A stretch of 64,000 nt of DNA, from assembly GCA_937888775.1 (NCBI GenBank), contig CALAQT010000149.1, positions 1 to 64,000 of the forward strand, in the 5' to 3' direction. The position numbers and the translations under genes are program-made. This document shows positions 28,399-48,150 of the stretch, in pieces. Numbering within the stretch: the stretch's first letter is position 1; each line of letters begins with the position of its first letter. The notes under the pieces are model-generated. The model was not told the origin of the DNA. It did no database searches and saw only the letters and a program-made list of their open reading frames with translations. This DNA comes from an uncultured Actinomycetes bacterium (GTDB taxonomy: Bacteria; Actinomycetota; Thermoleophilia; Solirubrobacterales; Solirubrobacteraceae).

Positions 28399-28617
28399 CG
28401 GTGGATCCTCCCGCAGTTCCCACGCCGGCTGCGAAGTCCTTTGGATGCACGACTGCGGCTCGCCCAAGCCGAGACGGTCCGTAGCGATCGAGCAAACGCC
28501 CTTGGCCAATGATTCCTCGGTCAGCCACAGCGCCAGTCCGTCGCGGTTGCCCCGTCGAACGCTGTGCATCGGCGTCAGGTGGCCCGTTCACGGTCACTGC
28601 GCTTGGCCACTTGCTAA

Positions 28618-29619
28618 GAGCTTGCGCCAATAGGTGATTGAGTCGGATGACTCAGTTGAGTCGTCTGGATGCCTGTCTCGGCCCTGAAAGTACATGCAGG
28701 ACATGGACTTTCCGATGATTGGGAGATCTCAACCAACCCCGTCAAGGGAAGCGTCCATGCCTGCGATCCAATCATGCTTCATCGAGCCCCTCTGGGACCA
28801 GTTCTTCGCCCTCCTGCCGAGCCGGCCGGGGAGCCACACGCTGGGCTGCCACCGCCCCCGGGTCTCCGACCGCCTCGTCTTCGACAAGCTCCTCCAGGTG
28901 GCCGTATTCGGCTGCGCCTACTGGCGCATCGCTGACGCCACCTGTTCGGCCACCACCCTGCGCCGTCGTCGCGACGAGTGGATCGGCCTCGGGGTGATGG
29001 AGCAGCTGGCCCAGATCGCCGAGGCGGGCTACGACCGGCTCATCGGTTTGCAGCTCGAGGACATCGTCGTGGACGGCTGCATCACCAAGGCGCCCTGCGG
29101 TGGAGAGATGGCCGGGCGGAGCCCGGTCGATCGTGGCAAGCAGGGAACCAAGCGCTCGATTCTCGTGGACGGAGCAGGGATTCCCCTCGGTGTCGTCCAG
29201 GCACCGGCCAATCGGAATGACTCACCGTTGCTCGCGTCCACGCTGGACACGCTTGCCGATCGTGCCCTGCCACCCGGAGAGACCACCGTGCACCTCGACC
29301 GTGGCTACGACTCGGGCAAGACCCGCACCGAGCTCGATCGCCGCGGCATGGTGTCGTGCATTGCCAAGCTGGGCAAGCCGGCGCCGCTGCGAGCAACCTC
29401 GCGCTGGGTCGTGGAGCGGACCAACGCCTGGCACAACGCGTTCAAGAAGCTGGCCTGGTGCACCGAACGCCGCGGCGCGGTGATCCGTTTCTACGTCGCC
29501 CTGGCCAACGCCATCATCATCGTCCGCCGCTTGGTCCGCGAGGCGTGGAAACGCTACCGCTGGGACACTCGTCCGAGGCGCTGCCCATGAACGCGCCAAT
29601 CACCTATTGGCGCAGGCTC
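28618..29619 (+). mobile_element. IS5-family insertion sequence, complete, 1002 bp
   Basis: The terminal inverted repeats are GAGCTTGCGCCAATAGG at 28618 and its near-perfect complement ending at 29619 (one mismatch in about 23 bp, continuing through TGATTG). A 3-bp target duplication TAA flanks the element (28615-28617 and 29620-29622). It carries one intact transposase. Near-identical ends and an open frame suggest a recent, possibly active, insertion. Confidence 0.85.
28757..29590 (+). CDS. IS5-family transposase
   Basis: The ATG at 28757 is preceded by AGGGAAG. The 277-aa protein has the insertion-sequence N-terminus LWDQFFALLPSRPG, the first catalytic D in DIVVDGCITKAP, the second in TVHLDRGYDSG, and the final E in WVVERTNAWHNAFKKL. 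This is the DDE layout of IS5 (IS427/ISL2-like group) transposases. The frame is intact and lies within matching terminal repeats. Confidence 0.9.
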   Translation: MPAIQSCFIEPLWDQFFALLPSRPGSHTLGCHRPRVSDRLVFDKLLQVAVFGCAYWRIADATCSATTLRRRRDEWIGLGVMEQLAQIAEAGYDRLIGLQLEDIVVDGCITKAPCGGEMAGRSPVDRGKQGTKRSILVDGAGIPLGVVQAPANRNDSPLLASTLDTLADRALPPGETTVHLDRGYDSGKTRTELDRRGMVSCIAKLGKPAPLRATSRWVVERTNAWHNAFKKLAWCTERRGAVIRFYVALANAIIIVRRLVREAWKRYRWDTRPRRCP

Positions 29620-29623
29620 TAAG

Positions 29624-29697
29624 TCGGGGGCGGCGGGACTCGAACCCCACTACTTCCCGGTCCCAACCAGGCGCGCTACTGTCTGCGCCACGCCCCG
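29624..29697 (-). tRNA. degenerate tRNA-Pro(GGG)-like gene
   Basis: Read on the minus strand it begins CGGGGCGTGGCGCAG, has an anticodon arm CCTGG-TTGGGA-CCGGG and a T arm with GGTTCGAGTCCC, and ends CGCCCCCGA. That is the tRNA-Pro pattern, but the anticodon loop has six bases rather than seven. One extra base also sits in both the T stem and the 3' acceptor strand, and no CCA is encoded. It is probably a decayed tRNA-Pro or an att copy. The IS5-family element inserted two bases from its 3' end. Confidence 0.5.
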
Positions 29698-29713
29698 ATG
29701 GCGTCGCGTCGCG

Positions 29714-30305
29714 GTGCCCAGGCGGAGTTGCGTGTATGTGCGGACCGACGCCATCGCCATCGAGATCGTCACCACGCTGCTGATCGGTGACGGCCCTCTC
29801 GACCTAGAGAAGGCAAGGCGCGAGTTCAACCATGCGTGGCAATGGATCCGACCACTCAAGCAGTTGGCGGGTCACCTCGAGATCGACGAGCCTACGTCGC
29901 AGGCAGTTGCAGCCGGCGTCAAAAGCGATTGAGGCGTTTGACGCCGATGTCGCGCTCGCTGCTACGGCACAGCTCCTTCAAGTTGCGTACGCGCTGGCAA
30001 AGCGCCTTCACAAGACAGTGAACGGCGTGGTTGTCTTCATCTGCTTGGATGGCATCGCCGAGGACATCCCCGTCCGCGAGGGGCTGGGCCCGGCAGGCCA
30101 GTTCGGTCGCTGGCCGCTGTTTGCCATCGACGTGCATCTGCTCATCAACCAGTCCTGCGCAGGGCTGGTGTGGGATGTGCCGAACATGCAGATGCTCGGA
30201 GGCGGCGGCGACACTCCGCTTCGCCGCGAGGTCATCGAGGAGGCGCTGGTCTACGAGCTCCAATACGCCCGCTCGGCACGCCGACCAGCCTCTAAGCTGC
30301 TCTGA
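29714..30305 (+). pseudogene. frameshifted hypothetical gene
   Basis: One frame reads ATTIVTTLL-like sequence (IVTTLLIGDGPLDLEKAR, WIRPLKQLAGHLEI) to a stop at 29930. The frame that continues the protein, AIEAFDADVALAATAQLLQV and on to EVIEEALVYELQYARS, runs to 30305. The switch falls at an AAAA run near 29923. Together they would make a mostly helical protein of about 195 aa that I do not recognise. A one-base indel probably inactivated it. Confidence 0.45.
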
Positions 30306-30506
30306 CCTTTCGAAAAATCGCTCCACCGCGCGGCGTCGAGCATGTTGCATTTAGCGATAGATGCCGAAGTGATCGGGGTTCAACGCGAGTGAAGCCTGAG
30401 CGTCAAGACCGATCCTCTGGTTGGCGTGCGCGGTTTCGGCCCCAGGCAGCCGTCGCTGATGCTTGCCGGCGCGTGGCGTGTAACGGCGCCCATCGCAGCG
30501 CTGACA

Positions 30507-30539
30507 CCCGTCAATGCGCAATTGCCACATGGGATCGTT
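30507..30539 (+). repeat. dispersed 30-bp motif, diverged copy E
   Basis: CCCGTCAATGCGCAATTG then CCACATGGGATCG. It is the most diverged copy, and is assigned by its GCACATGG-type core and orientation. Confidence 0.35.
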
Positions 30540-30548
30540 ACAACCGGG

Positions 30549-30731
30549 TCAGTGGCCCAGGATCGTGAGGACCGCGACCGCGAGCACCACCACGACCGTC
30601 AATGCGAACACCCACCTCGCCGGACCGCGAACGAGCAGCCGTACACCCAGGAAGCGCAGGCGCACCTCCATGTCACCGCGAGTGGAGGCGCGTTCAGGCG
30701 TTTGACCGGGATCCGGGTTCGGGATGGGCAT
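30549..30731 (-). CDS. small single-span membrane protein (60 aa)
   Basis: Starts at ATG 30731 with GAGGTG about seven bases upstream. The product has a polar N-terminus and a basic patch (RLRFLGVRLLVRGPARW), then one membrane helix (VFALTVVVVLAVAVLTILGH) at the very C-terminus. This is a tail-anchor layout. No family is recognised. Convincing mainly because of the ribosome site and the clean helix. Confidence 0.5.
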   Translation of the reverse strand: MPIPNPDPGQTPERASTRGDMEVRLRFLGVRLLVRGPARWVFALTVVVVLAVAVLTILGH

Positions 30732-30947
30732 GGAGGCACCTCACGAGGTGCGCCGCCCCTGTCGGCCTCCAGCGGCTCGGATGAGCGTTCCCGCCCCGTG
30801 GCCCTGCAGAGGGCTCGATCCCGGCGTCGGGCGCTGGTTGTCGTTCTGTCCATCGTACCGGATCCGTCGACCACCCCGAGCACCCCCTCTGCCGCGCTGT
30901 GAGCGCGGTCCAACCTGGTCCCCGCTTCAGTTGGCCAGGGTCCTACG

Positions 30948-31757
30948 ATGGCCGCCATGGTCACCGAAGGACAGGGTTCTGACGAGGCCGCCCGTGAGGA
31001 CTCGGCTGAAATGACTCTTGGGGCGGTGCACTTCGATGGACTGAGCCCTACCGACTTTGAAGAATTCTGTTTCGACCTCCTGGCTGATACCGGCTTCGTT
31101 GACCTTGACTGGCGGAAGGGCACGCCCATGGCCTCGTCGCCAGCCGATCGTGGCCGTGACATCGTGGCCCATCTCGAACGCGAGGATGTGGACGGCTACA
31201 CGTACAGAGAAACCTGGTTTGTCGACTGCAAGCACTACAAGAGAGGAGTTCCACCAGAGGCACTTCACGGCACCATCACGTGGGCACAGGCAGAGCGGCC
31301 TTCCGTCGTCCTGTTTATCGCTTCTGGGTATCTGACGAATGGAGCCAAGGACTGGATTGCAACCTTGAAACAGTCATCAAACCCACCCTTCCGGATCCGC
31401 GTGTGGGAGATGCCACAAATTCGGCGTCTCCTTGTGGACCACATGGACATCGCGTTCAAACACGATGTCGAGACGTCTTCCCTGAGGCGAGTGTCAGAAC
31501 TCCTGGCGGCCGAATCCGAGTTGACCGACAAGCTGTGGTATGGCCGTAAGCCCGCCGACGATCAACCCGTCCCAGCCGATTGGAAGCCTGAGATCGTGAG
31601 CGGCATGCGCGCCGCTCAGCGTCGAATGGAAGAGCAGTACGGCAAAGACGAACTCCTGTTGCACGTGAAGGACCAGTTCGCCTGGGGAATGCTTTCGGGC
31701 AAGGTCTCAGCGATCCGATGGGTGCTCGGTGAGGACTGGGACATGCTGGACAGCTGA
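30948..31757 (+). CDS. Mrr-like restriction endonuclease domain protein
   Basis: A 269-aa protein; an ATG three codons in (30957) is an alternative start. The N-terminal domain is of the Mrr/REase type: LSPTDFEEFCFDLLADTGF, then DRGRDIVAHLE and ETWFVDCKHYKRGVPPEAL. This gives the PD-(D/E)XK residues D and D...CKH. The second half is helical and unrecognised. Such proteins cut modified or foreign DNA, and here it stands alone, without a methylase. A defence role is likely from the family. Confidence 0.75.
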   Translation: MAAMVTEGQGSDEAAREDSAEMTLGAVHFDGLSPTDFEEFCFDLLADTGFVDLDWRKGTPMASSPADRGRDIVAHLEREDVDGYTYRETWFVDCKHYKRGVPPEALHGTITWAQAERPSVVLFIASGYLTNGAKDWIATLKQSSNPPFRIRVWEMPQIRRLLVDHMDIAFKHDVETSSLRRVSELLAAESELTDKLWYGRKPADDQPVPADWKPEIVSGMRAAQRRMEEQYGKDELLLHVKDQFAWGMLSGKVSAIRWVLGEDWDMLDS

Positions 31758-31945
31758 CGTGCCGGCACTCACTCCCGAGAGACTCCCGCAAAACCCGGAA
31801 GTTGACGGGTGACCACCAGACCGCGGCAGAAACACCCCCTCAGCGCGTCAGAGATCGCGGCTGACACCGGTCAGCCGGGTGGCTCTGGACAGGCAGGCCG
31901 ATCGACGATCTGAGGAGCGATCACCACCGCGGGAGGTGAGACGGG

Positions 31946-32155
31946 TCAGCGCGAGCCGGGGCGCTCCGCGATGTCGAGCCATTTCTCAAGGTCCTTCCGG
32001 TGCTCGGCGTGCTCTGCCTTCTTGGCCTCGGAGCCGGGGTTCTCGTCGCACGTGCACAGCTCGCGGCGGCTGCTGAACCCTACCGGCCAGTTCTCGCGAG
32101 CCTCGGACGGCAACTCGGAGTAGCGCACCTGCAGGCAGCGCGGATCGTGACCCAT
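31946..32155 (-). CDS. small hypothetical protein (69 aa)
   Basis: The frame starts at ATG 32155 and encodes a short soluble protein with CLQVRYSELPSEARENWPVG and CTCDENPGSEAKKAEHAEHR. Two or three cysteines and a Lys/Glu-rich helix are visible. No family is recognised, and the ribosome site is weak. It may be real because codon use is normal. Confidence 0.35.
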   Translation of the reverse strand: MGHDPRCLQVRYSELPSEARENWPVGFSSRRELCTCDENPGSEAKKAEHAEHRKDLEKWLDIAERPGSR

Positions 32156-32272
32156 GGTCGGACATGGTAGCTGCGGGCGCTTGGCGGCTCGGCGCTCGGC
32201 CGAAAGCCGCGGACTACTACCGGGGTGTCGAGGCTCTGGACGCGCCGCAGCCAGAGCGCGCATCATCGCTCC

Positions 32273-32482
32273 ATGACGGGCATAGAACTATTCGCAGCCG
32301 GGTCGCAGATACTTCAAATGCTCCAAGGGCGCGAGCAGCAAGAACTTCAATTAGCCCTCGCGACGCTTCAAGATCCAGGGGCATCGAAGGCCAACCGCGC
32401 GTGGGCGCAACAGTTGATTCGTCAGCGGGTGGACGAGGTTCGACGTAACCCCCAACCCCGACGCGGAGGCTTCACCGGATAA
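32273..32482 (+). CDS. small hypothetical protein (69 aa)
   Basis: From ATG 32273 the product reads MTGIELFAAGSQILQMLQGR and then QELQLALATLQDPGASKANR, with a basic tail. It is predicted to be mostly helical. No Shine-Dalgarno site is clear and no family is recognised. It is head-to-head with the 31946 gene. Confidence 0.35.
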   Translation: MTGIELFAAGSQILQMLQGREQQELQLALATLQDPGASKANRAWAQQLIRQRVDEVRRNPQPRRGGFTG

Positions 32483-32530
32483 GAGCGCGCTACGAGGACG
32501 AGCCGCGTGCAGTGTGCGGCGCGGCCCGCC

Positions 32531-32908
32531 CTACGCGCCGGAGGACGTATAGGCGAAGGCGCTCGGCCGAGCCAGGTAGGCTTGGGCCTGGGTGTCTGTC
32601 GATCGCCTACCCCATAACTCCGCGTCGATTGGTTCAGGCAGATCTGGCGTAACGTCGGCGGCCGTGACCGGAGCGCCAACGCCAGTGTCGACCCACTCCG
32701 AGCCTTGTAAGAGTTCGGGCAGACTCAGCTGGACAGTTGCCTCGAGGGCTAGTGCTCTCATGAGGTGGTCCTGCTCTCGGCGCTCGCCGTCTGGGCGCCG
32801 CAGCCCTCTCTGGGACTCAGGTGCCGGCTCACCCTCCATGGCTGTGGGCGCCCTCCAAGGTACGGTAGAAGTGGCAGCATTATGCAACAGGGGCTGCTCC
32901 GAATCCAT
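32531..32908 (-). CDS. hypothetical protein (up to 125 aa)
   Basis: A minus-strand frame with several possible starts; the most plausible is ATG 32839. The likely core is DHLMRALALEATVQLSLPEL and SEWVDTGVG. No membrane segment or known domain is visible. The support is only the open frame and balanced composition. Confidence 0.25.
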   Translation of the reverse strand: MDSEQPLLHNAATSTVPWRAPTAMEGEPAPESQRGLRRPDGERREQDHLMRALALEATVQLSLPELLQGSEWVDTGVGAPVTAADVTPDLPEPIDAELWGRRSTDTQAQAYLARPSAFAYTSSGA

Positions 32909-33154
32909 AGCCGGGTTTCCCTGTTTGACCTATCGGGACGGGAACGGGACAGGCCGACGAATCGCGATGATGGGTGAATTGGCTACCGCTGACAGGGATG
33001 ACTGCGAGGGTTACTCGCGAAGGGCCCCAGGCCAACGGCGTGTGCAGGAGCTTGGCGATCTCCATGCAGGTGCCATTGGAGGCTCCTTGCTCACACTACG
33101 TTGCGCGAACCCGGGCACGGTACCGAAGAGCAAACGAAACATGCACGGGATGTC

Positions 33155-33270
33155 GGGCTTAGTCGGAGCGCATGGCGATGCCGCGCCACTGCTTGAGCTT
33201 GCTGAAGCAGCGTTCGACGACGTTGCGGCCACGGTAGCGTTCCTGCTGTCGCGGTGCCCTGGTGGGGCGG
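33155..33270 (-). pseudogene. IS5-family transposase C-terminal scar
   Basis: On the minus strand the frame reads RQQERYRGRNVVERCFSKLK then QWRGIAMRSD and stops. This is the C-terminal, E-containing segment of IS5-family transposases. The rest of the element is absent. Bases 32909-33154 and 33271-33431 hold nothing else I recognise. Confidence 0.7.
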
Positions 33271-33431
33271 CCGCTCCCTACGTTTCGAGTTCGCTTGATC
33301 GGCCCGACTTCATCTGAATTGGGGTCGATTTCGCTGTACGAGAATCCGAGCGTAAGATGGGATTTCTATCGCCGGATCGCGCGTGACAGCCAGTGACACT
33401 CGGAGATCCGGCGATCGCTTGGAGGAACTCC

Positions 33432-34313
33432 ATGACCTCGCAGGAGCCGCCGCCCCAAGGCCCTCCCTCAGGGCCGCCGTCCCAACCACCGGGACCGCCG
33501 AACCTACCGCTCGGATATCCGGCTCCCCCATCAGATCGCGCCGCGCCGCAGACCCACCGGTCGGCATGGGAGGAGGCGGGATTCGCGGCCACCGCAGCCG
33601 GCGGCGTCATCGCCTCGGTCGGGGCGTTTAGTCAAGGTACGGGGCTGGGTCTCATAGCCCTCACCGTAGATGCTGCATTCCTAGCCCTCTTCCTCTGGCG
33701 ACGGGGTACAGCTTGGCAGTGGATCGCAACTGCTGCATTCACGTCAGCCACCTTGCTGGTCTTGGGAGCGCTCGCCTTTCGCTTCGGTTGGAGCAGTCGA
33801 ACCTCCACGGCCCCGACGGCGACCATCCCTGCTCTGCCCAGCGGGACGCCGAGCCTTTACGTGGACCCTACGCGGAGTCTCTCGCTGGTGACGAAAGCTG
33901 AGCTTACGGGTTCGAATGGGACTTGGAGTTCGAGAACCTTGGTTCAACCTGGCGCCCTTGTTTCTGTTCTCGTATCGCTCAATAACGTCGGCAACCACCA
34001 AGTCGGCGGAGCGATAGTCCACCCCGGCGTGTTGCCCGCTGGGCTAAATCTCGTGCCGGGCAGCGTAACGCTGATAAATGGCAACTACCCGACCGGTTTC
34101 CCGTATTCATCTGACAGCGCGTTTCGGGACGGCTTCGGAATCGGAAACTACAACCCGGGCATAGATGCCTTCTTTCTGTTCAGGGTTCGAATCGACACCA
34201 GCGGGTTTCCGTGCGGTTTAACCACGCTTGTGGAGAACGCGACCGTCTCGGCGAACGGTGTTCCAACATTTAGCGGAGAGGCCGCGACCCTGGTCGTAAC
34301 CACACCCTGTTAA
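33432..34313 (+). CDS. Pro-rich membrane protein with extracellular beta domain
   Basis: The ATG at 33432 follows GGAGGAA by seven bases. The 293-aa product begins with a Pro/Gly-rich region (MTSQEPPPQGPPSGPPSQPP), then three membrane helices (about 46-125). An extracellular domain follows from about residue 140, with LVQPGALVSVLVSLNNVGNH and LPAGLNLVPGSVTLING, the pattern of DUF11/CARDB-like repeats of surface proteins. Function unknown. The layout suggests a cell-envelope protein. Confidence 0.65.
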   Translation: MTSQEPPPQGPPSGPPSQPPGPPNLPLGYPAPPSDRAAPQTHRSAWEEAGFAATAAGGVIASVGAFSQGTGLGLIALTVDAAFLALFLWRRGTAWQWIATAAFTSATLLVLGALAFRFGWSSRTSTAPTATIPALPSGTPSLYVDPTRSLSLVTKAELTGSNGTWSSRTLVQPGALVSVLVSLNNVGNHQVGGAIVHPGVLPAGLNLVPGSVTLINGNYPTGFPYSSDSAFRDGFGIGNYNPGIDAFFLFRVRIDTSGFPCGLTTLVENATVSANGVPTFSGEAATLVVTTPC

Positions 34314-34335
34314 CCCAACGCCGCCCTTGGTCCAC

Positions 34336-35121
34336 TCATTGGCCATTTGAGTGAGGCGGCTCCACCGCGTAGAAGGCGGTGACACTGGCGTCGACGCCCG
34401 TCTGGTGCCGGTGGTATCTCCCAGTGGACGTCATCTGAATGACGATGATGCTGGACTCAGCAACGTGCTGCTCCTGGACGCTCCAAGTGAGGGTCGCCTC
34501 GCCACCAGCTTGGCGATCTAGCTCAGGCCCTTGGGCAGCTTGCGCGTTCAGAGTCCACGTCAGCTCCCGATCTTGAGGGTCCCACCCAATGCAGCGAAAT
34601 GTCAAAAGGTCGCCTACCTGAAGTCGCGCTGGGACGACGACGACAACTCCATTGAGAGCGAGGGAGTTACCTAGCGAGTCAGTGACCGACTCGATGCGCG
34701 GATACCAACTCATGTCAGGTGCCCTTTCACTTCGCCAGAGCGTAAGCACGTTTCGGAACTCTCCCGCGATGCCTGAAAGCAGATCCCTTTCGAACGGAAG
34801 TAGGGTGCGACTGTGCATCGGGGCGTTTCGAAAGTCCTCCAGCCGGCCCATGTAGACCTTGAACCTTGACTGGTCCTTGAAGATTGGTTTGAACTGATCC
34901 CACCGTCGAAGCACGATCTCTTGCAAGTCCCAAAGATGCGTGTAAGCCAGTAGATCCTCGTCCACCACTGCACCGTTACGACGCTTGCCCTCTTCTACTC
35001 TGCGCTCCTCCAAGGTCGGCAAGTCGACGCCGGGTACGTCGCACCATTCGTCCCCGAGGACTCCGCGAATTGCCTCACGGAGAACGGACTCGACCACGTT
35101 GACTGCCTGGCTGGGCTCCAT
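34336..35121 (-). CDS. Swt1-like HEPN domain protein
   Basis: The likely start is ATG 35121; the frame is open further up, into the dispersed repeat at 35185. The 261-aa product begins MEPSQAVNVVESVLREAIRG, and carries AYTHLWDLQEIVLRRWDQF and LEDFRNAPMHSRTLLPFE. The RN-X3-H motif (near residue 97) and the surrounding helices match Swt1-like HEPN domains, which are often RNase toxins in defence systems. A C-terminal beta domain (about 160-261, LQVGDLLTFRCIGWDPQ) follows. It lies downstream of the SLOG/HEPN and PRTase genes on the same strand. Confidence 0.65.
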   Translation of the reverse strand: MEPSQAVNVVESVLREAIRGVLGDEWCDVPGVDLPTLEERRVEEGKRRNGAVVDEDLLAYTHLWDLQEIVLRRWDQFKPIFKDQSRFKVYMGRLEDFRNAPMHSRTLLPFERDLLSGIAGEFRNVLTLWRSERAPDMSWYPRIESVTDSLGNSLALNGVVVVVPARLQVGDLLTFRCIGWDPQDRELTWTLNAQAAQGPELDRQAGGEATLTWSVQEQHVAESSIIVIQMTSTGRYHRHQTGVDASVTAFYAVEPPHSNGQ

Positions 35122-35184
35122 TTCTGCGTAAGCGTACCCGCGACGACGTACACGGCCATCCCGGCCCACGGAGCCACCATCGGG

Positions 35185-35212
35185 CCGCTCAGTGTCGGGT
35201 TGCCACGTGGTT
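35185..35212 (+). repeat. dispersed 30-bp motif, copy F
   Basis: CCGCTCAGTGTCGGGTTG then CCACGTGGTT. It lies between the HEPN gene and the broken HNH-like gene, so the two may have been brought together by an insertion. Confidence 0.55.
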
Positions 35213-35339
35213 GGCCAGATGCTCCCGGCGACCCGACGCGGGCCCTGGTTCACTACCGGCCCCCACCTCAACATCGTCGTGGCGAGCGCGGAGGTCGCCC
35301 TCATGGATCAGCTCAAGGCGCCCATCGACAGCTGGAGCC

Positions 35340-35700
35340 TCATTGCCCGGGTCGGCTCGATTGGCGCAGCCACACGGTGAGTTGATCGGGCAGGACAGGG
35401 GGCCTCAGATCACGCGCTTCGTACACCGCGGTGATGTGCTCCCGGGGTATGGGGAGTCCAAGTTCCCGGTTCGCGTTCTGCAGCATGATCGCTGTCTTGA
35501 CCGCCCAGAAGGCCAGGGTCCGCTGCTGACCACGGAGATCGGCACCCCGAGGCGGTGCAGGGACAGCATCGGCCGCATCATCAGCTTCGTCTCGTCCTCG
35601 AGACGGCTCATCCAGCTGGTGTTGCACTCCTGACACACCGTCGGCAACCGCAAACGCAAGCTCTGCTTGGTATCGACGCGCACCCGCTTCGGGTCGTCAA
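35340..35700 (-). pseudogene. HNH-like (treble-clef) protein fragment, frameshifted
   Basis: One frame gives LRLRLPTVCQECNTSWMSRL and EDETKLMMRPML. A second frame continues TLAFWAVKTAIMLQNANREL and IPREHITAVYEARDL. The CQECNTSWMSRLE element matches CASCNSGWMSRLE in the intact protein at 52555, so both belong to one family. The N-terminal CxxC and EHIFP part is missing, and a frameshift lies near 35590. It begins right at the stop of the 35697 gene, so it was probably the next gene of that operon. Confidence 0.6.
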
Positions 35701-38700
35701 GGAGCTTCAGCCAGCCGCTTGTCGATCTCTTCGATTGTTCGCGCCACACGACTCATGACCGCTGCGCACTCCTGCCGTTCCCGAGCCACCCCCTTGTTGT
35801 TGCGCCGTGAGAAGGCGTTGCGGAGCGCGTGCAGATGGTGCGAGCCATCCTGGAGCAGGTTTCGCACCCCGCTAACGAGTGGTGATCGCACGGCCGCGAG
35901 ATCGGCCCGGCACAAACGCGCCGTCACACGGTCCAGCGACCTCTCCGCAGCAATGATTTCCTCGATATCGGACCTGGAACCCGAGAGATGTTTCGTTACG
36001 CGCAGCATCGACGACGAGAGTGCGTCGATGTGCGGTCTGCAAACCCAGGTCAGGTCAGCCCGGATAGCCTCCGGACCCGCAATGCTGCCAATCCAGCGGC
36101 GAGCCACCAGCCCCACGGACGCCAGCCGCTCGTCTTCTGGAAGCGCCTCGTCTGTGACGATCTCCTCGCGTGCAAAGGTCACAGGTTCGCGCTCCGCCAG
36201 ACTGAGCGTCACCCGCTCCACATCGGCCTCCACGTGGAAAATCCCCGGGAGCAGACTCGGAATCGAAAGAGCCCGAAGGTCTACTTCGACGTTCGCTGGC
36301 TGGGCAGAGACGGTCATGGCGTGCGCGCTGCGCTCAATGTGCACTCCGACGAGTCCAAAGATCCCCGCAAGCAGCCGAATGGTCATCCCGAGCTCGGCTT
36401 GAGTCGGGACAACCGCACGACGCGCAGCAGCGAGCGCAGGATCAGGATGGGTAAAGATCCATGGCAGGATCGCGAGTTGCAAGGCGAGCACGGTCTCAAA
36501 GAGGCCGGCGAAGCGTTCGGCGAACTCTGCGTCCGTCAGTGTGATGGTCGACTCGCTGACCTGCACGTGGTCCCGGGTGGTGCGCTCAGTCAGCTGTATG
36601 CCATGGTCTAGCACCACGATGCCGGCATGAGCATTCGCGTTTCGGATGAGCATCTCGGCAGGCTCATGCCACGGGCTGCCGAGGCGAAGGAGCTCTTGCA
36701 CAACCTCGCCCGCTTGGACGCCGAGGGCGACGTTGTGCGCGTACGATGCGTGATCTCTACCGCGAGTGGCTCGTGCAGCAATGACCAGCACGCCACCAAG
36801 ATCGCGCAGTGGCCCCTCCATCAATGTCTTGTACACGCCGGTCAGCACCTCCGCCTGGAGGCGGCGGCCCTCGGTGCCCTCAGGCAAGGACAGAAGGACG
36901 TCCACCTGATCGTTAAGTGTCCGGAGCGCGGAGCTGACCCTCTCGATGAGCTCGGCCTTGTCATCGAGCCAATCTGGCGCCGAGGCATCAGCCTGGTCCA
37001 GTACGCCCCGGGCGAGCAGGGCACGCGCTTCTACGAGCACGCTGTCCACGATAGGGACCGGCAACACCGTAGCCGGCAACAGCACGATGGCATCGGCGTC
37101 GGTTAGATCTGCGACGCCGGGAATACCGGAGAGAGCGGTACGCACCAGGCCGGCTGCATCCCAGATGGTCGCCGGCTGGTTTCTGACGCCCTCCCAGGCC
37201 ACGGCAGCCATGTCGATGGCGTGGCCCAACCTCCACCCATCTGAGGCGACCATGGATTTCGACCGATGGAGAACCTCGACCAAGAGACCGGCGGTGCGAT
37301 TGGCGCGGTTCAGTACGTGCTGGCCGTCCTTTTCGCGCTCGCGCGCCTCGTCAACGTCCGCCGCGATGAGCGAACGCAACATCGCCGCGTGGCCAGCCAC
37401 CATTGAGCCGAGGGTGCGGACAAGGATGTGATGCGCGCCCCGGTAGTCAAGGGGGGGGAGCACGCCCATGAGCACCGCTACAGCGGTGGTGGCGGTGTCA
37501 ATGCTGGTGATTATCCGCGTGAGTGCTTCGACACACTCTCTCTCGTCGGCATCCCAGCTTGTGTGTGGCGCATCGTCCTTGATCGGAGCAAGGATGGCTG
37601 GGATATCAATGCGTGCGCGGTCCAAGATTGTGTGGCCGTAATCCGCTGGCGACATTCCGACTCCGCTCTTGGTGAAGCGCGGCTCATCGAGGTGCGCTGC
37701 GCGCACCCGGTCTTGCAGACGACTGATGGCACCTTTGAATGCCGATCTCCGACTCTCGGTCGTTGGGTCCACTGCATCAGGAGCAAGCGAGGCACCGCAG
37801 CGGGTGCAGTTCCTGCTCCGACGAACGAGAGTGGCCTGCCCACATGACTCGCACTCGATCAGTGCGAAGGGCACCGCATACCGGATGACGCCGGTGTCAT
37901 CGGTTGGCGCATCCGGCTCATCCTCTAGTGCTCCACCGCAATCGATGCACTCACGGATTTGGCCTTCTGGGTAGCGCGCTGTCAGACCGCAGGTTTGGCA
38001 GCGCTTGTAATGCTCGGGAACCAACGCCGTCGTCTGGCCAGCGTCGCTCTTCAGCAGAGCGAGTTGTTCTCCGTGGAACGTGGGCGACTTGACCTGCTCC
38101 GTGAGACGGGTACGCAGCTCGCTGCGCGTCCGCACAGCAATGCCACCTTGGTCAAGAAGCCGACGATTGCCAGCCGGAGCATCGGTGCCGAAGTCGAGAA
38201 CCAGAAGCGGGCGTCCAACTCGCAGCGCCTGTATACCGGCGTCGAGTGTGCCACCGCGGTCGCGGGCTTCGATCACGACGAGCGCTTGGGATGCCGCCAC
38301 GATCACCTTGTTGCGCGTCATAGCGGCCCACGAGGTCCACGCCTGCGTCGGCGAGAACTGCGACACCGCGAGCACATGCTCCTCGTCGAAAGGAAGGCCT
38401 TTGAAGACGCGCTTCGGTTTGAAGTGGAGGACTCCTTCGGCCAGGACGATCACGGTCACGCCTCCCGCGCGGAGTGCGGCGAGATGTGTCTCGGTGTCCA
38501 CTCCGCGGGCGTAGCCGGACACTACGGCGAACCCGGCACTGGCCACCTCTTCGCCGCAGGCAGCCGCGGCCTCGAGCCCTCTCGGTGAGGCGTCACGAGA
38601 GCCGCACATTCCCACTGCCGGACGTGCCAGCAGACCGCGGCCTCCCCAGGTGAAAAGAACCGGTGGTGCGCCATGCTGCGGGCGTAGCCCCTCGGGGTAC

Positions 38701-38837
38701 CCCTCACTGTCCGGCAGCAACGCGTCGTAGCCGCCCCTGATCAGCTGGTCGAGAACTTCGGGGTCGCACCCAGCATGCTCCTGGTTCCTTGCCGGTTTTA
38801 GACCGAGCGCAGCACGCAGACGGCTCTCACGCGTCAT
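35697..38837 (-). CDS. SLOG (DprA/Smf-like) protein with two zinc ribbons and HEPN-like C-terminal part
   Basis: A 1046-aa protein of unusual layout. Residues about 75-215 form a DprA/Smf-type Rossmann (SLOG) domain: GMCGSRDASPRGL, VVSGYARGVDTETHLAAL, IEARDRGGTLDAGIQAL. Two zinc ribbons follow (C280/C283/C297/C300 and C329/C332/C344/C347). About 600 helical residues come next, with LIRNANAHAGIVVLD, where R732-N733 and H737 fit the HEPN RNxxxH motif. There is no winged-helix end and it is three times the size of DprA, so natural transformation is unlikely. SLOG domains bind nucleotides, and HEPN domains are mostly RNases. It overlaps the PRTase gene by 11 bases. The sensor/effector role is inferred. 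Confidence 0.7.
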   Translation of the reverse strand: MTRESRLRAALGLKPARNQEHAGCDPEVLDQLIRGGYDALLPDSEGYPEGLRPQHGAPPVLFTWGGRGLLARPAVGMCGSRDASPRGLEAAAACGEEVASAGFAVVSGYARGVDTETHLAALRAGGVTVIVLAEGVLHFKPKRVFKGLPFDEEHVLAVSQFSPTQAWTSWAAMTRNKVIVAASQALVVIEARDRGGTLDAGIQALRVGRPLLVLDFGTDAPAGNRRLLDQGGIAVRTRSELRTRLTEQVKSPTFHGEQLALLKSDAGQTTALVPEHYKRCQTCGLTARYPEGQIRECIDCGGALEDEPDAPTDDTGVIRYAVPFALIECESCGQATLVRRSRNCTRCGASLAPDAVDPTTESRRSAFKGAISRLQDRVRAAHLDEPRFTKSGVGMSPADYGHTILDRARIDIPAILAPIKDDAPHTSWDADERECVEALTRIITSIDTATTAVAVLMGVLPPLDYRGAHHILVRTLGSMVAGHAAMLRSLIAADVDEAREREKDGQHVLNRANRTAGLLVEVLHRSKSMVASDGWRLGHAIDMAAVAWEGVRNQPATIWDAAGLVRTALSGIPGVADLTDADAIVLLPATVLPVPIVDSVLVEARALLARGVLDQADASAPDWLDDKAELIERVSSALRTLNDQVDVLLSLPEGTEGRRLQAEVLTGVYKTLMEGPLRDLGGVLVIAARATRGRDHASYAHNVALGVQAGEVVQELLRLGSPWHEPAEMLIRNANAHAGIVVLDHGIQLTERTTRDHVQVSESTITLTDAEFAERFAGLFETVLALQLAILPWIFTHPDPALAAARRAVVPTQAELGMTIRLLAGIFGLVGVHIERSAHAMTVSAQPANVEVDLRALSIPSLLPGIFHVEADVERVTLSLAEREPVTFAREEIVTDEALPEDERLASVGLVARRWIGSIAGPEAIRADLTWVCRPHIDALSSSMLRVTKHLSGSRSDIEEIIAAERSLDRVTARLCRADLAAVRSPLVSGVRNLLQDGSHHLHALRNAFSRRNNKGVARERQECAAVMSRVARTIEEIDKRLAEAP

Positions 38838-39651
38838 TGCGAGCCTGCTTCTTCAACGTCTTCGCTCCGACCAGGCCGCAGACAGCCACGGCGCCGGCAC
38901 GGCGCGCTGCGTTCGCAACCGCCGCCATTGTCCGTCCGCTCATCAGCACATCGTCCACGATGAGAACCGGCCGGCCGCGGACAACCGAGTTGACGGTGAA
39001 TTCGTTGGAGAGGTCGTCCGACTCTCCAATCGCTTTGGCCTCCGGACGCGTCACTCGGCGCGCTCCAGTGCGCTCAAACGGGATCCCCAGGTCGGCTGCA
39101 ACAGCTCTGGCAAGTTGCTCGCTGAAGCTCTCGTTCAGAGCGTCATGACCCGGGATGGAGAGGACAGCGTCACAACCGCTGAGCAAAGGATGACGTCGAA
39201 CTACGCTCACTAACTCTCGAGTCAGGTCATCGAGCGCGCCAGGGGCCTTCTTGTATTTGGCGCGCGACACGAGCTCCCCCGCCTTGGTGTTCTTCCACTG
39301 CATCGGATCCGGGTCAGAGTCGGGATCCTTGTAGTAGTCGAGGGCAATGGCGATGTTGACCCCCGAGGGCGGCCGGATGGTGACGACCTTTTCCAGCAGC
39401 TCTAGGCAGTCCCGCTCTCGCGTAGATGGCAGCGCGTTGAGGGAGTATCGGTAAGTCCACCTCGCGTTTTGGAGTCCCTTGATGGGCAGGCGGTGGATCC
39501 CTCGCGAACTCAGCACGGTCTCCACCTGCGTGGACACGTAGTCGGGGCAGTCGAGGTAGAGCCGAAGCTCGCCTGTCTTCTGATGCTGACGGAGCTGGTG
39601 CCATTGGAGGCGCTCAGCGTGAGCCCGGAATGGATGGAGGGTGATCCGCAT
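38827..39651 (-). CDS. phosphoribosyltransferase-domain protein
   Basis: A 274-aa protein starting at ATG 39651. Its C-terminal half is a type I phosphoribosyltransferase: the PRPP loop is VLIVDDVLMSGRT (229-241), with the flexible loop region LIGIPFERTGARRV-like sequence before it (about 186-202). The N-terminal half (1-130) is unique, with RLYLDCPDYVSTQVETV. ComF-like proteins and nucleotide-salvage enzymes share this fold. Its stop lies inside the start of the SLOG gene, so the two proteins are made together. A nucleotide-handling partner for the SLOG protein is the natural inference. Confidence 0.75.
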   Translation of the reverse strand: MRITLHPFRAHAERLQWHQLRQHQKTGELRLYLDCPDYVSTQVETVLSSRGIHRLPIKGLQNARWTYRYSLNALPSTRERDCLELLEKVVTIRPPSGVNIAIALDYYKDPDSDPDPMQWKNTKAGELVSRAKYKKAPGALDDLTRELVSVVRRHPLLSGCDAVLSIPGHDALNESFSEQLARAVAADLGIPFERTGARRVTRPEAKAIGESDDLSNEFTVNSVVRGRPVLIVDDVLMSGRTMAAVANAARRAGAVAVCGLVGAKTLKKQARNDA

Positions 39652-39923
39652 AGCGAACCCATGTTCGGTGACGATACAGCACTGCCAGGCCCGGCGTGGC
39701 CGGCTGCCTCAATCCTACGAGGCGGGTGGGATTGGTGTTACCGACGCCTATCTCGGAGCAACCGCAGCCGCGGTCGCTCCTCGCGGAAAAACCCCCCAGA
39801 GACGAGCGGTCGCCTGCGACGAGGTGTCGGCTTCGTGACGGGCTACCTCAGCCGATGCGCACCCCGCCTCCGACGCACTACAAGCCGCCACCGAGCGCCG
39901 CGGCGCCGGTGTCTGAACAACGC

Positions 39924-39951
39924 TTGACATTCGCATAACATTTGTTATGAT
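39924..39951 (+). promoter_or_regulatory. sigma70-type promoter with internal operator palindrome
   Basis: TTGACA (39924-39929) and TATGAT (39946-39951) are separated by 16 bases. Between them, ATAACA-TT-TGTTAT (39935-39948) is a perfect 6-bp inverted repeat that overlaps the -10. The next gene encodes a ribbon-helix-helix protein, so this is a likely autoregulatory operator. Transcription would begin only a few bases before the ATG at 39962. Confidence 0.7.
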
Positions 39952-39961
39952 CTCCGCCAGG

Positions 39962-40429
39962 ATGACTAACGCTGCCGTCTACTTCCGTGCTCACGACGAT
40001 CTCCGGGAGGCGCTGGAGGCGTTCCGCCTGGAGAGGGGCGTGACGCTAAGCGCCGCAGTGGTCGAGCTCTTAGCGCTTGGGCTCGAGGCTCATTCGGACG
40101 GGCCCTCCGTGAGTGACCTACAGCGCCAGGTTCTCCAACTCCAAGCGGAGCTCGCCAAGCGAGACGCCGACGTTGCGACCGCGCGCGGCGAGCTTCAGCA
40201 CCTTCGGCTCGGTTACCACGCCCTCGAGGAGCACCTCAAACGAGCTGACGTCGGAACCTGTCCGACCTGCCGCGCGCCAACTAGCGGTTACGAGTTCGTT
40301 GTCACAAGGCGATGCTCAGCGTGCAATGGGGCGCTCTCCGGTGCACCACCGGCGCGTGACTCCGCCGCCCTGTGGCTCATCGCCGGAATCGCAGTTGCCC
40401 TGCTCGCTTACGCGGCCGTTCAGCAATAA
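39962..40429 (+). CDS. RHH / coiled-coil / zinc-ribbon / membrane-anchor protein
   Basis: The start is put at ATG 39962 because an upstream ATG lies inside the -10 box. The 155-aa protein has four parts. A ribbon-helix-helix-like domain (about 1-42: AAVYFRAHDDLREALEAFRL) is followed by a coiled coil (about 50-90: VSDLQRQVLQLQAELAKRD). A zinc ribbon (CPTC and CSAC, about 99-125) and a C-terminal membrane helix (ALWLIAGIAVALLAYAAV) complete it. A DNA-binding domain on a tail-anchored protein is unusual. It would tie operator DNA to the membrane or respond there. It is divergent from the PRTase/SLOG operon. Confidence 0.6.
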   Translation: MTNAAVYFRAHDDLREALEAFRLERGVTLSAAVVELLALGLEAHSDGPSVSDLQRQVLQLQAELAKRDADVATARGELQHLRLGYHALEEHLKRADVGTCPTCRAPTSGYEFVVTRRCSACNGALSGAPPARDSAALWLIAGIAVALLAYAAVQQ

Positions 40430-40445
40430 CACCCAAGGAGAAAGC

Positions 40446-40622
40446 ATGATGTTCTGCCCGCAATGCGGCGAAATCATCGTCGAGACCGTACTCGGGCGCG
40501 AAGCTGACAAGGTCATCCACCGCTACACGAGGCACGATCCCGTCGCTGGCCTCGTTTTCAGCGTGATCGCGTCGGTGATCATTGCGAGCGCGGTCACCGC
40601 TGCCTGGAAGGCGCTGAGATGA
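40446..40622 (+). CDS. small zinc-ribbon membrane protein (58 aa)
   Basis: The ATG at 40446 follows AAGGAGA by five bases and the previous stop by 16 bases, so it is in the same operon. The protein starts MMFCPQCGEIIVETVLGREA, a one-knuckle zinc motif, then a His-rich linker (VIHRYTRHDPVAG). It ends with one membrane helix (LVFSVIASVIIASAVTAAW). Like the upstream protein it joins a CxxC motif to a tail anchor. The function is unknown. Confidence 0.65.
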   Translation: MMFCPQCGEIIVETVLGREADKVIHRYTRHDPVAGLVFSVIASVIIASAVTAAWKALR

Positions 40623-40756
40623 ACGGTCGTCACTTGGCGAAGTCCTCACGAGTCAGGATGCCGGCGCTCCGCCCCGCCTTAGTCGCTCAATTCGGGTCGG
40701 GGTTCGGCGAGACGCTGAAGCCACGCTGGGAGCAGCTGCTCCCAGTTCGAGTCTAG
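40619..40756 (+). CDS. possible coupled small ORF (45 aa) ending in a palindrome
   Basis: The ATG at 40619 overlaps the stop of the previous gene (ATGA), which suggests translational coupling. The product starts MNGRHLAKSSRVRMPALRPA and is basic and soluble. Near its end the DNA holds an 18-bp perfect palindrome, TGGGAGCAG-CTGCTCCCA (40727-40744), of unknown role. The ORF is short and without homologues that I know. Confidence 0.35.
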   Translation: MNGRHLAKSSRVRMPALRPALVAQFGSGFGETLKPRWEQLLPVRV

Positions 40757-41261
40757 GCGCCCCGACTTCCGGCAGATCCCCCTGCTTTCAACCGATTCGG
40801 GTTCCCTCGCTTGTGCCCAGCGCCAGTAATCGACGAGTTTGGCGAGGGCCTGACCGTGCCGACGACGCGGACGCCGTCACTGCCTGGGGTCGGGACAACG
40901 GGAGACGACTTCAGCCCACTCAAGGTTGCGATGTGGTTGGCTGCCCCGCCCCCGGGCCGATCAGCTACTACATCACGGCGTATTCGCCACTGCAAGTAAT
41001 CCGGTCCGCAGGCCGTGCCCCGGACGCTCGCTTCAGCCCCCGCCCCGCGTAGTTACAGCCAGCATTGGCCGATACGGGCGCCATTTTGGCGCCAGCGTCG
41101 GCGACCTGTGGCGTCACGCCGTGGCCCGCCCCATCAGGACGGAGCCGAAATCCGTATTCAAAACGACCCGCCACGGCCCAGCCTGGCAAGGTACGTCACG
41201 ACGACTATCGCTCTCGAAAAGCGGTGTGGTGAAAGCCACCGGCCCGGCGCGACGCCCGAAA
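40757..41261. other. intergenic stretch with a mobile-element-end repeat
   Basis: No gene is supported. Bases 40886-40936 repeat the 14769-14812 sequence (GTCGGGACAAC and GGAGACGACTTCAGCCC). The rest looks like decayed sequence between the RHH operon and an integrase scar. Confidence 0.4.
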
Positions 41262-41490
41262 TCAGTTAGTGTCGGTTTTGTCGCTATCGAGCGACCGCCA
41301 CGGTCCACCGCGGGCACCTCCCAGGACGGTCGCGAGGCGCTCGGCGGCGGCCGCCTGGAGACCCGGGAGCACGTGGCTGTAGGTGTCGAGGGTGATGCCG
41401 ACGGTGGCATGTCCAAGGCGCTCGCTGACGACCTTTGGATGCTCCTCTGGGCCAGCATGAGGGTCGCCATCGTGTGGCGCAGGTCGTGGC
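41262..41490 (-). pseudogene. tyrosine recombinase (integrase) C-terminal remnant
   Basis: The minus-strand frames give HDLRHTMATLML, holding the catalytic arginine box. After a frameshift comes HPKVVSERLGHATVGITLDT followed by YSHVLPGLQ, with the second histidine and the nucleophilic tyrosine. This is the end of a phage-type tyrosine integrase. The N-terminal and core-binding parts are gone, so it is inactive. It may be the integrase of an element once inserted at one of the tRNA-Gly genes. Confidence 0.75.
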
Positions 41491-41917
41491 GTTGATGGTC
41501 GCCAGGTGGAGCCGCAAGTAGCTCGCGGCCCCATTGCAGGGCAGCGCCGGCAGCGGCAGCACCATGGCGACGGTGGGCAAGGGCGCCGTACCCCCAGAGG
41601 TACTGACCTACGAGCATGCGGATCAGTGCGCTCGGCGAACTCATCCGCTCGGCGAGGAGATCCTGGACTTCGGTAGAGGTGAAGCTCGACGCAAGCTGAT
41701 CCCACGGGACCGCGCTGAACAGCGCGGTTTCCAGACCGAGCGCCCGGACCCTCAAGTCGTCGGATCCCGCGGCGGCCACGGCCTCGTCGTACAGCGCGTT
41801 GCCGAGGTCGAGGATCTCCGTGCCGTAGCGCAGCGGGTCAGATGCCGTTGCATCGCGCACCGCCGGATCCAGGACCAGAGGCACTGGGGCTGGGCTCCCA
41901 GCCGAGCGCACGTCCAT
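41491..41917 (-). pseudogene. hypothetical gene fused by deletion to the integrase tail
   Basis: From ATG 41917 the frame encodes a helical protein (VRALGLETALFSAVPWDQLA, LIRMLVGQYLWGYGALAHRR). At about 41491 it passes without a stop into integrase sequence and runs on to 41114. The first 140 residues do not resemble integrases, so a deletion seems to have joined the two. I do not recognise the N-terminal family. Confidence 0.4.
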
Positions 41918-42158
41918 CGCGCATACATCGTACGTCTGTTCGCTCAGCCGGAAGGTCGGGGAGCGCTCAGATGGGACGGGCCGAGCGGTCCGTGAGGTCG
42001 ATGCCCCGCATAAACTCCGCGGGCGTGGCACTGTCCTCGCCTCGCTCGACCGCCAGAAGTAGCCAGCGGTGGGACCCGGGTGGACGCTGGCACTGGGGCG
42101 GACGAATGAATCCCTCGCCGTCTCACTATGCTAGTCGGCACGTGACAGGCACTCGCGT

Positions 42159-42641
42159 GTGACCGCTGTGGCTATCTCGACAGCGGCGAATCCGATCCTT
42201 GCCGACGTCAAGGCCGCAGACGTCGAACTCGCAATCGGCATCGCCTTATTCGGCGCGCTTGTCGTGATCTTGAGCGTATTGCTCGCGCGTCGATTGCAGA
42301 ACAAGGACGCTGGGCGTGAACGGCGCCGGCGGACCAAGGCGCTACTCAAGCCCGTACTCTTGGACCTGCAGTCGGCTATCGCCTCGCTCACCCAGGTCGC
42401 GAACGGGCACCTGGCAGCAGCCTCGCTCCTGACGGACGACGGGTACCAGGCACGCGCCGACGCAGCGTGCGATGTGCTCGAGCCGGATCAGGTCAAAGCC
42501 CTGCGCGCCGGCCTGAGCCAGCTCAGTAAGGTGATCCGCGATCGCAACGACGCCAACGGGTCGATGACAGCCGGCGCGGCTCGGCTGCTGCGGAAGCGGC
42601 TGGAGAGCGTTGTCCAGGCGCTCGAGGCATCGACGAAGTAA
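42159..42641 (+). CDS. single-span membrane protein with helical domain (160 aa)
   Basis: The start is a GTG at 42159. One membrane helix (VELAIGIALFGALVVILSVLLA, near residues 21-42) is followed by a basic patch (GRERRRRTKALLK) and an all-helical cytoplasmic part (LQSAIASLTQVANGHLAAAS and LSQLSKVIRDRNDANG). Family unknown. The next gene starts one base inside its stop (TAATG), so they are coupled. Confidence 0.55.
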   Translation: MTAVAISTAANPILADVKAADVELAIGIALFGALVVILSVLLARRLQNKDAGRERRRRTKALLKPVLLDLQSAIASLTQVANGHLAAASLLTDDGYQARADAACDVLEPDQVKALRAGLSQLSKVIRDRNDANGSMTAGAARLLRKRLESVVQALEASTK

Positions 42642-42973
42642 TGACCAAACTGGTGATCTGGACGGCCCCTGACGGACGACAACCCCAGTACGACAATGTC
42701 GAGGACCGGAACGACCCCCACTTGGCGAGATCTCTCTACGAGGCTGTCGCCGATATCTTGGAAGGCCAGCCCTTTGCACTCCTCGTCACCCAGAGCGGGG
42801 TCTGGGCCTGGCCATCCCACGGAGGCATGCTCTGGCTGTTCTTCGGCTTCAACCGGATCGCATCGGAGGACGTCATCTACCTGCTTCACTCCGCAATTCT
42901 CGACGTGGAGTCCGATGATCCACTTGAGGGCGACATCGCAGTCGCGGAACAGCGATGGCTGGCCCTTAAATAG
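42641..42973 (+). CDS. hypothetical protein (110 aa)
   Basis: The ATG at 42641 shares a base with the preceding stop (TAATG). The product is soluble, with LVIWTAPDGRQPQYDN, FALLVTQSGVWAWPSHGGML and YLLHSAILDVESDDPLEG. The aromatic, beta-rich middle suggests a small globular domain, but I know no family. It ends 24 bases before the XRE regulator. Confidence 0.5.
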   Translation: MTKLVIWTAPDGRQPQYDNVEDRNDPHLARSLYEAVADILEGQPFALLVTQSGVWAWPSHGGMLWLFFGFNRIASEDVIYLLHSAILDVESDDPLEGDIAVAEQRWLALK

Positions 42974-42988
42974 CGGTTCCGCTATACT
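42970..42988 (+). promoter_or_regulatory. palindromic operator overlapping the XRE gene -10
   Basis: ATAGCGG-TT-CCGCTAT (42970-42985) is a perfect 7-bp inverted repeat and overlaps a -10-like TATACT (42983-42988). The XRE-regulator ATG follows at 42998. This is a likely autorepression site with a very short leader. It also overlaps the stop of the upstream gene. Confidence 0.6.
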
Positions 42989-42997
42989 GGACGGGCC

Positions 42998-43624
42998 ATG
43001 CGAAGCAGATACCAGCGGGCCGTCCCGAGCGAGACGCGGGAGGGGCCGCTCCCGGAGAACGCCGTCGACGCCGCCACGGCTATCGATCAGCTACGAGCGC
43101 GCCTGGTAGCCAGGTACCCCGGCTTCGAGGACCGAGTCCCCTGGGTACGGCGAATGAGCCGTCTCGCCGCCCACCGGCGGTCGCTCGGCTTGACCCAGAC
43201 CGACGTGGCGCGCCTCATGGACGTGCCACAGTCTGTCGTGGGCAGGCTCGAGAGTGGGGCGACCGACCCCCAGGTCTCCACCTGGGAGCGCTACCTCGAT
43301 GCCCTCGGCCTCAAGGCACCGGTGGTTCAACCCGCCATCTCGGTGGTCAGTGAATCCGATGCCGGACCTGTCCGCACCCGCGTGAGCGCCCGGAGAACCT
43401 CAGATCTGTCTGCCGCCGTCCAAACTCCCGGTGAGGTTTTCGTCAGGGAGGCGCTCCAGCATTCTCTTGAGCGAGGGCTGGCCGCTGTCACCCGAGAAGC
43501 CGACGTGACACTCCGCGCCGACACCCAAGAGCAGTTGATCGCGAGGGCCCTCGAGAAGGGGGCGGAGATCGCCCTCTCCACCCTGGAGGAGGACCTAGAG
43601 TTGGATGTCGAGCTCGGCCTTTAG
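42998..43624 (+). CDS. XRE-family transcriptional regulator
   Basis: A 208-aa protein. The helix-turn-helix lies at about residues 54-110: MSRLAAHRRSLGLTQTDVAR then LMDVPQSVVGRLESGATDPQ, the standard Cro/C1 pattern. The N-terminal 45 residues and C-terminal half (about 110-208, helical with EQLIARALEKGAEIALSTL) are unique. The palindrome just upstream suggests that it controls its own gene. No toxin-like neighbour is clear; the upstream 110-aa protein could be a partner. Confidence 0.75.
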   Translation: MRSRYQRAVPSETREGPLPENAVDAATAIDQLRARLVARYPGFEDRVPWVRRMSRLAAHRRSLGLTQTDVARLMDVPQSVVGRLESGATDPQVSTWERYLDALGLKAPVVQPAISVVSESDAGPVRTRVSARRTSDLSAAVQTPGEVFVREALQHSLERGLAAVTREADVTLRADTQEQLIARALEKGAEIALSTLEEDLELDVELGL

Positions 43625-43761
43625 AGCGCACGTCTGTGTCGGGGTAGCAGCACGAAGTGCTGCACCGCGGACCGGGAATTGGCGCGCAAGAGGCGCCTGG
43701 CGGGTTGGGCTGGTCTGCGGTATATTTTTGGGAACTGTCAGCCGAGCACTCAGGGGATGCC

Positions 43762-43938
43762 ATGTCTGGTCACCCGCCACCCACAGATTACGCGCATCAC
43801 CAGCAAATACAGGATGAGAACCGGCTCAAGGAGTTGGCGAACTGGCAGCAAGAGCAGCAGCGGCGTGCTGAGGCGGAGGCGCAACGCCATCGTGACGCGG
43901 AGATTCGTCGCCGGGCTGATCAAACGAATCAGCGATAA
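43762..43938 (+). CDS. small coiled-coil protein (58 aa)
   Basis: From ATG 43762 (AGGGGATG just upstream) the product reads MSGHPPPTDYAHHQQIQDEN and then a highly charged Gln/Arg/Glu helix (NWQQEQQRRAEAEAQRHRD). It should form a single long alpha-helix or coiled coil. Function unknown. The longer upstream frame is not supported. Confidence 0.45.
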   Translation: MSGHPPPTDYAHHQQIQDENRLKELANWQQEQQRRAEAEAQRHRDAEIRRRADQTNQR

Positions 43939-44226
43939 GCAACCGCTCCCATTGTGCGGAGCAGAGCATGCTTTCGCACCAAACGTTCCGCCCAACCGCC
44001 GACCCCGGAAAACGCGCGTGCGTGTGGGCCGTCCGTGAGTCCCGGCGCCTTGGACGACCTCTCCCTGGTTCTCAGGTTCGTGCAGCGTCCGGTACGGCGA
44101 CCGTGGATGCGGGAGGAAGTTGGGGTGTACGTTGTCGCCGCCTGAACCCCTGATCTAGTGAGGGTGATGACGTACCTGCGGCAGCGGGGGTGAGAAGCCG
44201 ACTGACGCGGCCGCGCTCGCCAGCCA

Positions 44227-48148: not shown

Positions 48149-48150
48149 TC

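Follow-up and report, generated by a model that had tools for sequence, protein, structure and literature searches.

DprA homologues act as antitoxins in shosTA, syrTA (as spelled in the source), and rqlHI, and a DprA-phosphoribosyltransferase (PRTase) pair of P2-like phages guards Escherichia coli against T7 and lambda (PMC9122126). In RqlHI, the available text places the toxicity of RqlH in its PRTase domain, reports that D663A largely abolishes it, and describes the DprA-like RqlI as countering it (PMC4670107). ShosT acts both as a PRTase and as a pyrophosphatase and upsets purine metabolism, and ShosTA is triggered by T7 Gp0.7, according to a review (PMC12593503) of Pu et al. 2025. Here, we analyze a locus with such a core pair in a 64,000-nucleotide stretch of DNA (the window; positions 1 to 64,000 of contig CALAQT010000149.1, assembly GCA_937888775.1) from an uncultured Actinomycetes bacterium. 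The locus consists of a PRTase gene and a gene for a 1046-amino-acid protein that joins a DprA-type SLOG domain to two zinc ribbons and a predicted HEPN-like domain.

A PRTase gene paired with a DprA-type SLOG domain

The PRTase gene (38827..39651) encodes 274 amino acids, and the fusion gene (35697..38837) encodes 1046. Both lie on the minus strand, as do all features of the locus given below, and a check of the open reading frames of the window showed that they share 11 bases. This agrees with the initial annotation, as do the SLOG domain and two zinc ribbons of the longer protein (Pfam, CxxC pairs). PF00156 matches residues 178 to 254 of the PRTase with an expectation (E) value of 2e-7 and is the only Pfam family found in the 274 amino acids. 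The loop LIVDDVLMSGRT at residues 230 to 241, which we take to be the phosphoribosyl pyrophosphate (PRPP) loop, includes D233 and D234, which are invariant across 22 aligned rows including that of the window (alignment A3, which uses 22 of 38 PRTase matches). The SLOG part of the fusion protein (residues 1 to 262, 38052..38837) matches PF02481 at residues 37 to 231 (1.6e-39) and SLOG cluster4 (4.5e-7) in Pfam. Among PADLOC models, it matches PsyrA (1e-44) and ShosA (7.2e-35), and the PRTase matches PsyrT (2.1e-15, at model positions 534 to 687 of 689, the PRTase end) and ShosT (5e-7). NCBIfam returned comF for the PRTase (2.2e-4) and dprA for the SLOG part, both under their cutoffs. Because the latter score, 117.9 bits, falls below the 191.15 of the dprA equivalog TIGR00732, the SLOG part is not a typical housekeeping DprA, and this candidate was rejected.

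The core pair is therefore the already known PRTase plus DprA-like arrangement of ShosTA and PsyrTA/RqlHI. The locus had been annotated as undescribed and without a named system; this does not hold for the pair, and only the fused module is without a named counterpart that we found. The roles first assigned, nucleotide binding or processing by SLOG and precursor handling by the PRTase, need recasting, because in the known pairs toxicity belongs to the PRTase and the DprA-like protein acts as its antitoxin (PMC9122126, PMC4670107). Judged from these relatives, the PRTase is a predicted toxin of the ShosT or PsyrT C-terminal type, and the SLOG part is a predicted antitoxin and nucleic acid sensor, probably of DNA.

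As in ShosTA, the PRTase gene adjoins the DprA-like gene, both ShosTA models match the locus proteins, though less well than those of PsyrTA, and the solved ShosA (9vzo, 331 amino acids) matches the SLOG part at 5.6e-11. However, the ShosA models and the solved chain span 303 to 331 amino acids, too few to accommodate a zinc-ribbon/HEPN module. The compact antitoxin typical of ShosTA is replaced here by a 1046-amino-acid protein, whereas stand-alone relatives of the SLOG part have 283 to 291 amino acids, and the PRTase scores better against the PRTase end of PsyrT than against ShosT. PsyrTA/RqlHI gives the best PADLOC scores for both proteins of the locus, yet PsyrT and RqlH are RecQ-like helicases with a PRTase end, and the 274-amino-acid protein has no helicase match in Pfam. 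RqlI, in turn, is described with DprA, molybdenum cofactor-binding, and helix-turn-helix regions, and no HEPN domain appears in the available text of that paper (PMC4670107).

The pairing recurs outside the window, in line with the coupling of SLOG and PRTase proposed initially. When GTDB genome contigs were searched with the PRTase alignment, eight loci emerged, all presumably from Actinomycetota judging by the record titles. In six of them, an adjacent stand-alone SLOG gene encodes a protein 45 to 57% identical to the SLOG part of the window; the two genes are codirectional in L001, L002, and L004 and divergent in L005 to L007, and no SLOG gene is adjacent in L003 and L008. PADLOC, run on five of the six pairs (L006 left out), matched PsyrTA/ShosTA models to all 10 proteins. 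The SLOG alignment further retrieved a contig of IMG/VR (L042; viral by the label of that collection), with a 281-amino-acid PRTase and a SLOG-bearing frame at 4994-6705, and scans of IMG/VR and of plasmids with the PRTase found nothing. In a sample of seven plasmid records among 126 with a DprA match, a PRTase is annotated as a neighbor of the DprA gene in two: pBCI1-2, where DprA overlaps the PRTase, and pMYCCH.01, where a SIR2-family protein is followed by DprA and then by an amidophosphoribosyltransferase. In a third record, from E. coli, DprA comes after a RecQ-family helicase, and the other four (one of which ends nearby) show no PRTase or helicase beside dprA in the PLSDB gene tables, which are incomplete. 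The SLOG antitoxin of L001 had no match among plasmids at 1e-30. Metagenome contigs carry further PRTases that are 62 to 75% identical (P0015, P0017, and P0018).

Among 394 whole genomes of the class, the PRTase profile matched 12 at an E value of ≤1e-10, one strongly (1.3e-77) and the next at 6.1e-14; among 396 of the phylum, the SLOG profile matched 20 at ≤1e-40, one strongly (2.9e-131) and the others at 7.1e-45 or weaker. The strong genome (G001) is not an independent find, because it is the genome of L001, which was used as a center, and the weaker SLOG matches, in open frames of 313 to 522 amino acids, are probably ordinary DprA. The GC content at third codon positions of the PRTase genes of L001 and L004 and of the L004 SLOG gene (at about 7700 to 9600) is 0.58 to 0.61, under that of most surrounding genes, which would fit recent transfer. 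On pMYCCH.01, the SIR2-family gene stands directly before the DprA-PRTase pair (L043, 787-3864) and is a possible added effector; it makes added effectors plausible, but as a single case it is an anecdote.

The zinc-ribbon/HEPN-like module

The SLOG part closes with a short QL-type end (EQLALL, residues 257 to 262), as in stand-alone SLOG proteins, and the first zinc-ribbon cysteine follows 18 residues later, near the point where the fuller module proteins start; the fusion therefore reads as two whole proteins joined. Four CxxC pairs (280/283, 297/300, 329/332, and 344/347) make up two zinc ribbons with eight cysteines (residues 280 to 347, 37797..38000). These cysteines are kept in every aligned row that has a residue there, given that P0013 starts inside the module and P0005, P0006, and P0010 start after the first CxxC. 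Pfam finds DZR on 11 and DZR_2 on 6 of the 13 module members at E values up to 1 (best, 1.6e-4 and 3.3e-6, respectively) and no family above its cutoff in the approximately 700 residues that follow. An assembly slip as the source of the fusion is unlikely and was rejected, because the database cluster of the fusion protein (P0001) holds two member sequences on four contigs and the 1046-codon frame shows coding-like GC content by codon position, fairly even throughout.

HEPN domains are recognized by an Rx4-6H motif with a polar residue after the arginine and by an upstream Ex3[KR] motif (PMC3710099, in its available part). RNANAH lies exactly at residues 732 to 737 (36627..36644), as first annotated, within a HEPN-like domain spanning residues 627 to 795 (36453..36959). 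All 13 rows retain R732, N733, and H737, but they are not 13 independent cases, since P0008 and P0012 are near duplicates and P0011 and P0013 are partial (alignment A4 omits P0012 as a gapped near-copy of P0008). The motif is the densest six-residue invariant window of the module. Chance alone readily yields Rx4-6H strings, and the 1046 amino acids contain seven; among the seven such strings of the C-terminal module, only RNANAH keeps both R and H in all rows. Upstream, EGPLR, an Ex3R motif (residues 674 to 678, 36804..36818), keeps E674 in 13 rows and R678 in 12.

In the predicted domain model, the Ex3R motif falls inside helix 67-101, the place of HEPN helix 2, and helix 130-142 stops at the R-N of RNANAH, with the histidine in a loop. 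The three best structural entries for this model are HEPN proteins (1jog, 7ae8, and 7ae9). The conserved motif, the Ex3R, and this fold match support the earlier HEPN call for the helical part, although Foldseek returned nothing significant. No HEPN profile matched the module in PADLOC or in Pfam, among the 25 of 27 families listed there. With the HEPN superfamily (MNT-HEPN toxins, HI0074), the module has in common the Rx4H with N after R, the upstream Ex3R, and the position of the motif at a helix end, but it differs in having beta strands after the motif and no MNT partner. Ahead of the HEPN-like domain, an AlphaFold2 model predicts a helical bundle at residues 358 to 529 (37251..37766), whose resemblance to talin-like bundles may reflect no more than a widespread arrangement; behind the HEPN-like domain, an alpha/beta part and a four-helix bundle are predicted at residues 805 to 1046 (35697..36425). 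A fold search with the whole module retrieved mostly common helical bundles (talin, PsbQ, and cytochrome b562) and was uninformative on function.

At least 12 other relatives of residues 275 to 1046 (P0002 to P0013) have 479 to 794 amino acids and no SLOG domain listed or aligned, though some are partial, and the absence of SLOG is silent on what lies upstream. The search for relatives loses true members, because P0003 came from one search and was absent from another. The longest contigs listed for module relatives and for PRTase relatives have no length in common except that of the window, a weak hint that the two usually live apart. No module relative was found in GTDB genome contigs, IMG/VR, 7 plus 394 whole genomes (with two candidates per genome scored in the 394-genome scan, among the 20 rows listed), plasmids, or phages (query P0004); these scans relied on at most two short patterns each or on a quick comparison without calibration, which speaks for rarity at that sensitivity and not for absence. 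When positions 28000 to 44000 of the window were compared with plasmids, only an IS5 fragment matched.

The new part appears to be this module of approximately 770 amino acids, fused behind a complete SLOG domain. In a literature search that covered few subscription papers, we found neither a report of a DprA/SLOG-HEPN fusion nor one of ShosTA combined with HEPN, and no description of an antitoxin that has a second effector built in. The zinc-ribbon/HEPN family would form a branch of HEPN, and neither Pfam nor PADLOC was seen to have a family for it. DS-11, a CBS-HEPN system from DefensePredictor, is alike in placing a HEPN ribonuclease (RNase) under a ligand-binding domain of the same chain, but it has CBS where the fusion has SLOG, and it is described in the available text as a one-protein system without a PRTase partner (PMC13092281).

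Possible mode of action and alternatives

We give an even chance to the reading of the locus as a two-gene toxin-antitoxin or abortive-infection module of the ShosTA-PsyrTA kind, whose antitoxin has gained a second effector, a HEPN RNase. The analysis itself shows the layout of the locus, the recurring PRTase-SLOG pairing, a module that is separable, conserved HEPN motifs, and a predicted fold that is HEPN-like. PRTase toxicity, antitoxicity of the DprA-like part, and phage resistance are carried over by analogy from the published relatives; RNase activity, joint control, and phage defense by the locus are what we infer beyond them. The PRTase would disturb PRPP and nucleotide metabolism and damage DNA replication, and the SLOG domain, which would also monitor DNA, would hold it in check by binding. 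The attached module would be a metal-independent RNase that stays silent within this complex until the same trigger releases or activates it. More tentatively, and with somewhat less than even likelihood, one SLOG sensor-antitoxin may restrain both killers, the PRTase acting on the nucleotide pool and DNA and the fused HEPN RNase; any phage factor able to disarm the antitoxin would then free both, or the RNase may serve as a backup. If the HEPN part is active, the antitoxin would be a killer in its own right, and this would change how such modules could respond to phages capable of degrading or blocking an antitoxin.

The same architecture could also serve a single effector, with the PRTase as sole killer and the module as a sensing or regulatory arm that, for example, binds RNA or cuts the toxin transcript. 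It is the antitoxin and not the toxin that carries the module, nucleic acid binding is frequent among zinc ribbons and HEPN folds, and the module brings large predicted parts outside the HEPN-like domain, namely, the helical bundle and the C-terminal alpha/beta and four-helix regions. We nevertheless consider this unlikely, as no row departs from the catalytic-type R, N, H, and E, a conservation beyond the needs of pure binding, and module relatives are listed without SLOG. It is doubtful, too, and a little more so, that two neighboring defense genes merely became one frame and work separately without shared control. Neither part looks truncated where the two meet, each has separate forms, and the fused form is known from the single cluster P0001, but that cluster has its two members on four contigs, and the frame runs unbroken through 1046 codons, with fairly even codon-position GC content and its key residues kept.

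A role outside defense, in DNA uptake or recombination, would draw on the action of ComF-type PRTases and DprA in competence, and both families have competence members, as the subthreshold comF and dprA matches recall. We regard this as very improbable in view of the shortfall against the dprA equivalog cutoff, the strong matches to PADLOC antitoxin models, the relatives on an IMG/VR contig and on plasmids, and a HEPN RNase motif that has no obvious place in uptake. A promoter and terminator scan found no excess over shuffled sequences (1 versus 0.8 and 3 versus 3.4).

Neighboring genes in the window

Directly after the fusion gene, positions 35340..35696 hold a remnant in two frames. It had been annotated as a broken HNH-like gene; the two-frame reading stands, but HNH is a reading by eye that the searches do not confirm, as neither frame has a convincing profile match (Pfam gives only NADH5_C at 0.044, under the cutoff, and PADLOC, NCBIfam, and plasmids give no match). 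Further on, the gene at 34336..35304 encodes a 322-amino-acid HEPN-like protein with RNAPMH at residues 159 to 164, a candidate member of the locus only. The earlier label of Swt1-like gives way here to SAV2148-like (7.3e-7, versus 0.052 for Swt1-like). Its C-terminal part is very weakly Ig-like (0.15), and it matches the PADLOC candidate PDC-M34B (3.5e-12).

The window has a GC content of 64%, which together with the relatives points to Actinomycetota, and its Druantia type I, TIR, and Mrr genes bear out the proposed defense setting. The Druantia type I core lies at 55244-63163 on the minus strand (DruE1, 1,895 bits; DruD1, 1.6e-96), together with a PD-(D/E)XK protein that weakly matches DruK (2.5e-10). 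On the plus strand, a 523-amino-acid protein (8022-9593) has a CAP12/Pycsar-type TIR domain (7.7e-26; PDC-S35, 2.2e-20), and another (30948-31757) has an Mrr-type restriction endonuclease domain (8e-12; PDC-M58A, 3.1e-13). Transposases are present among these defense genes: an IS5 transposase directly follows the gene for a 1008-amino-acid patatin-like protein (25372-28398, plus strand; TIGR03607, 6.9e-136), and a Mutator-family transposase adjoins a Schlafen AlbA_2 domain protein at 46813-49577 on the minus strand.
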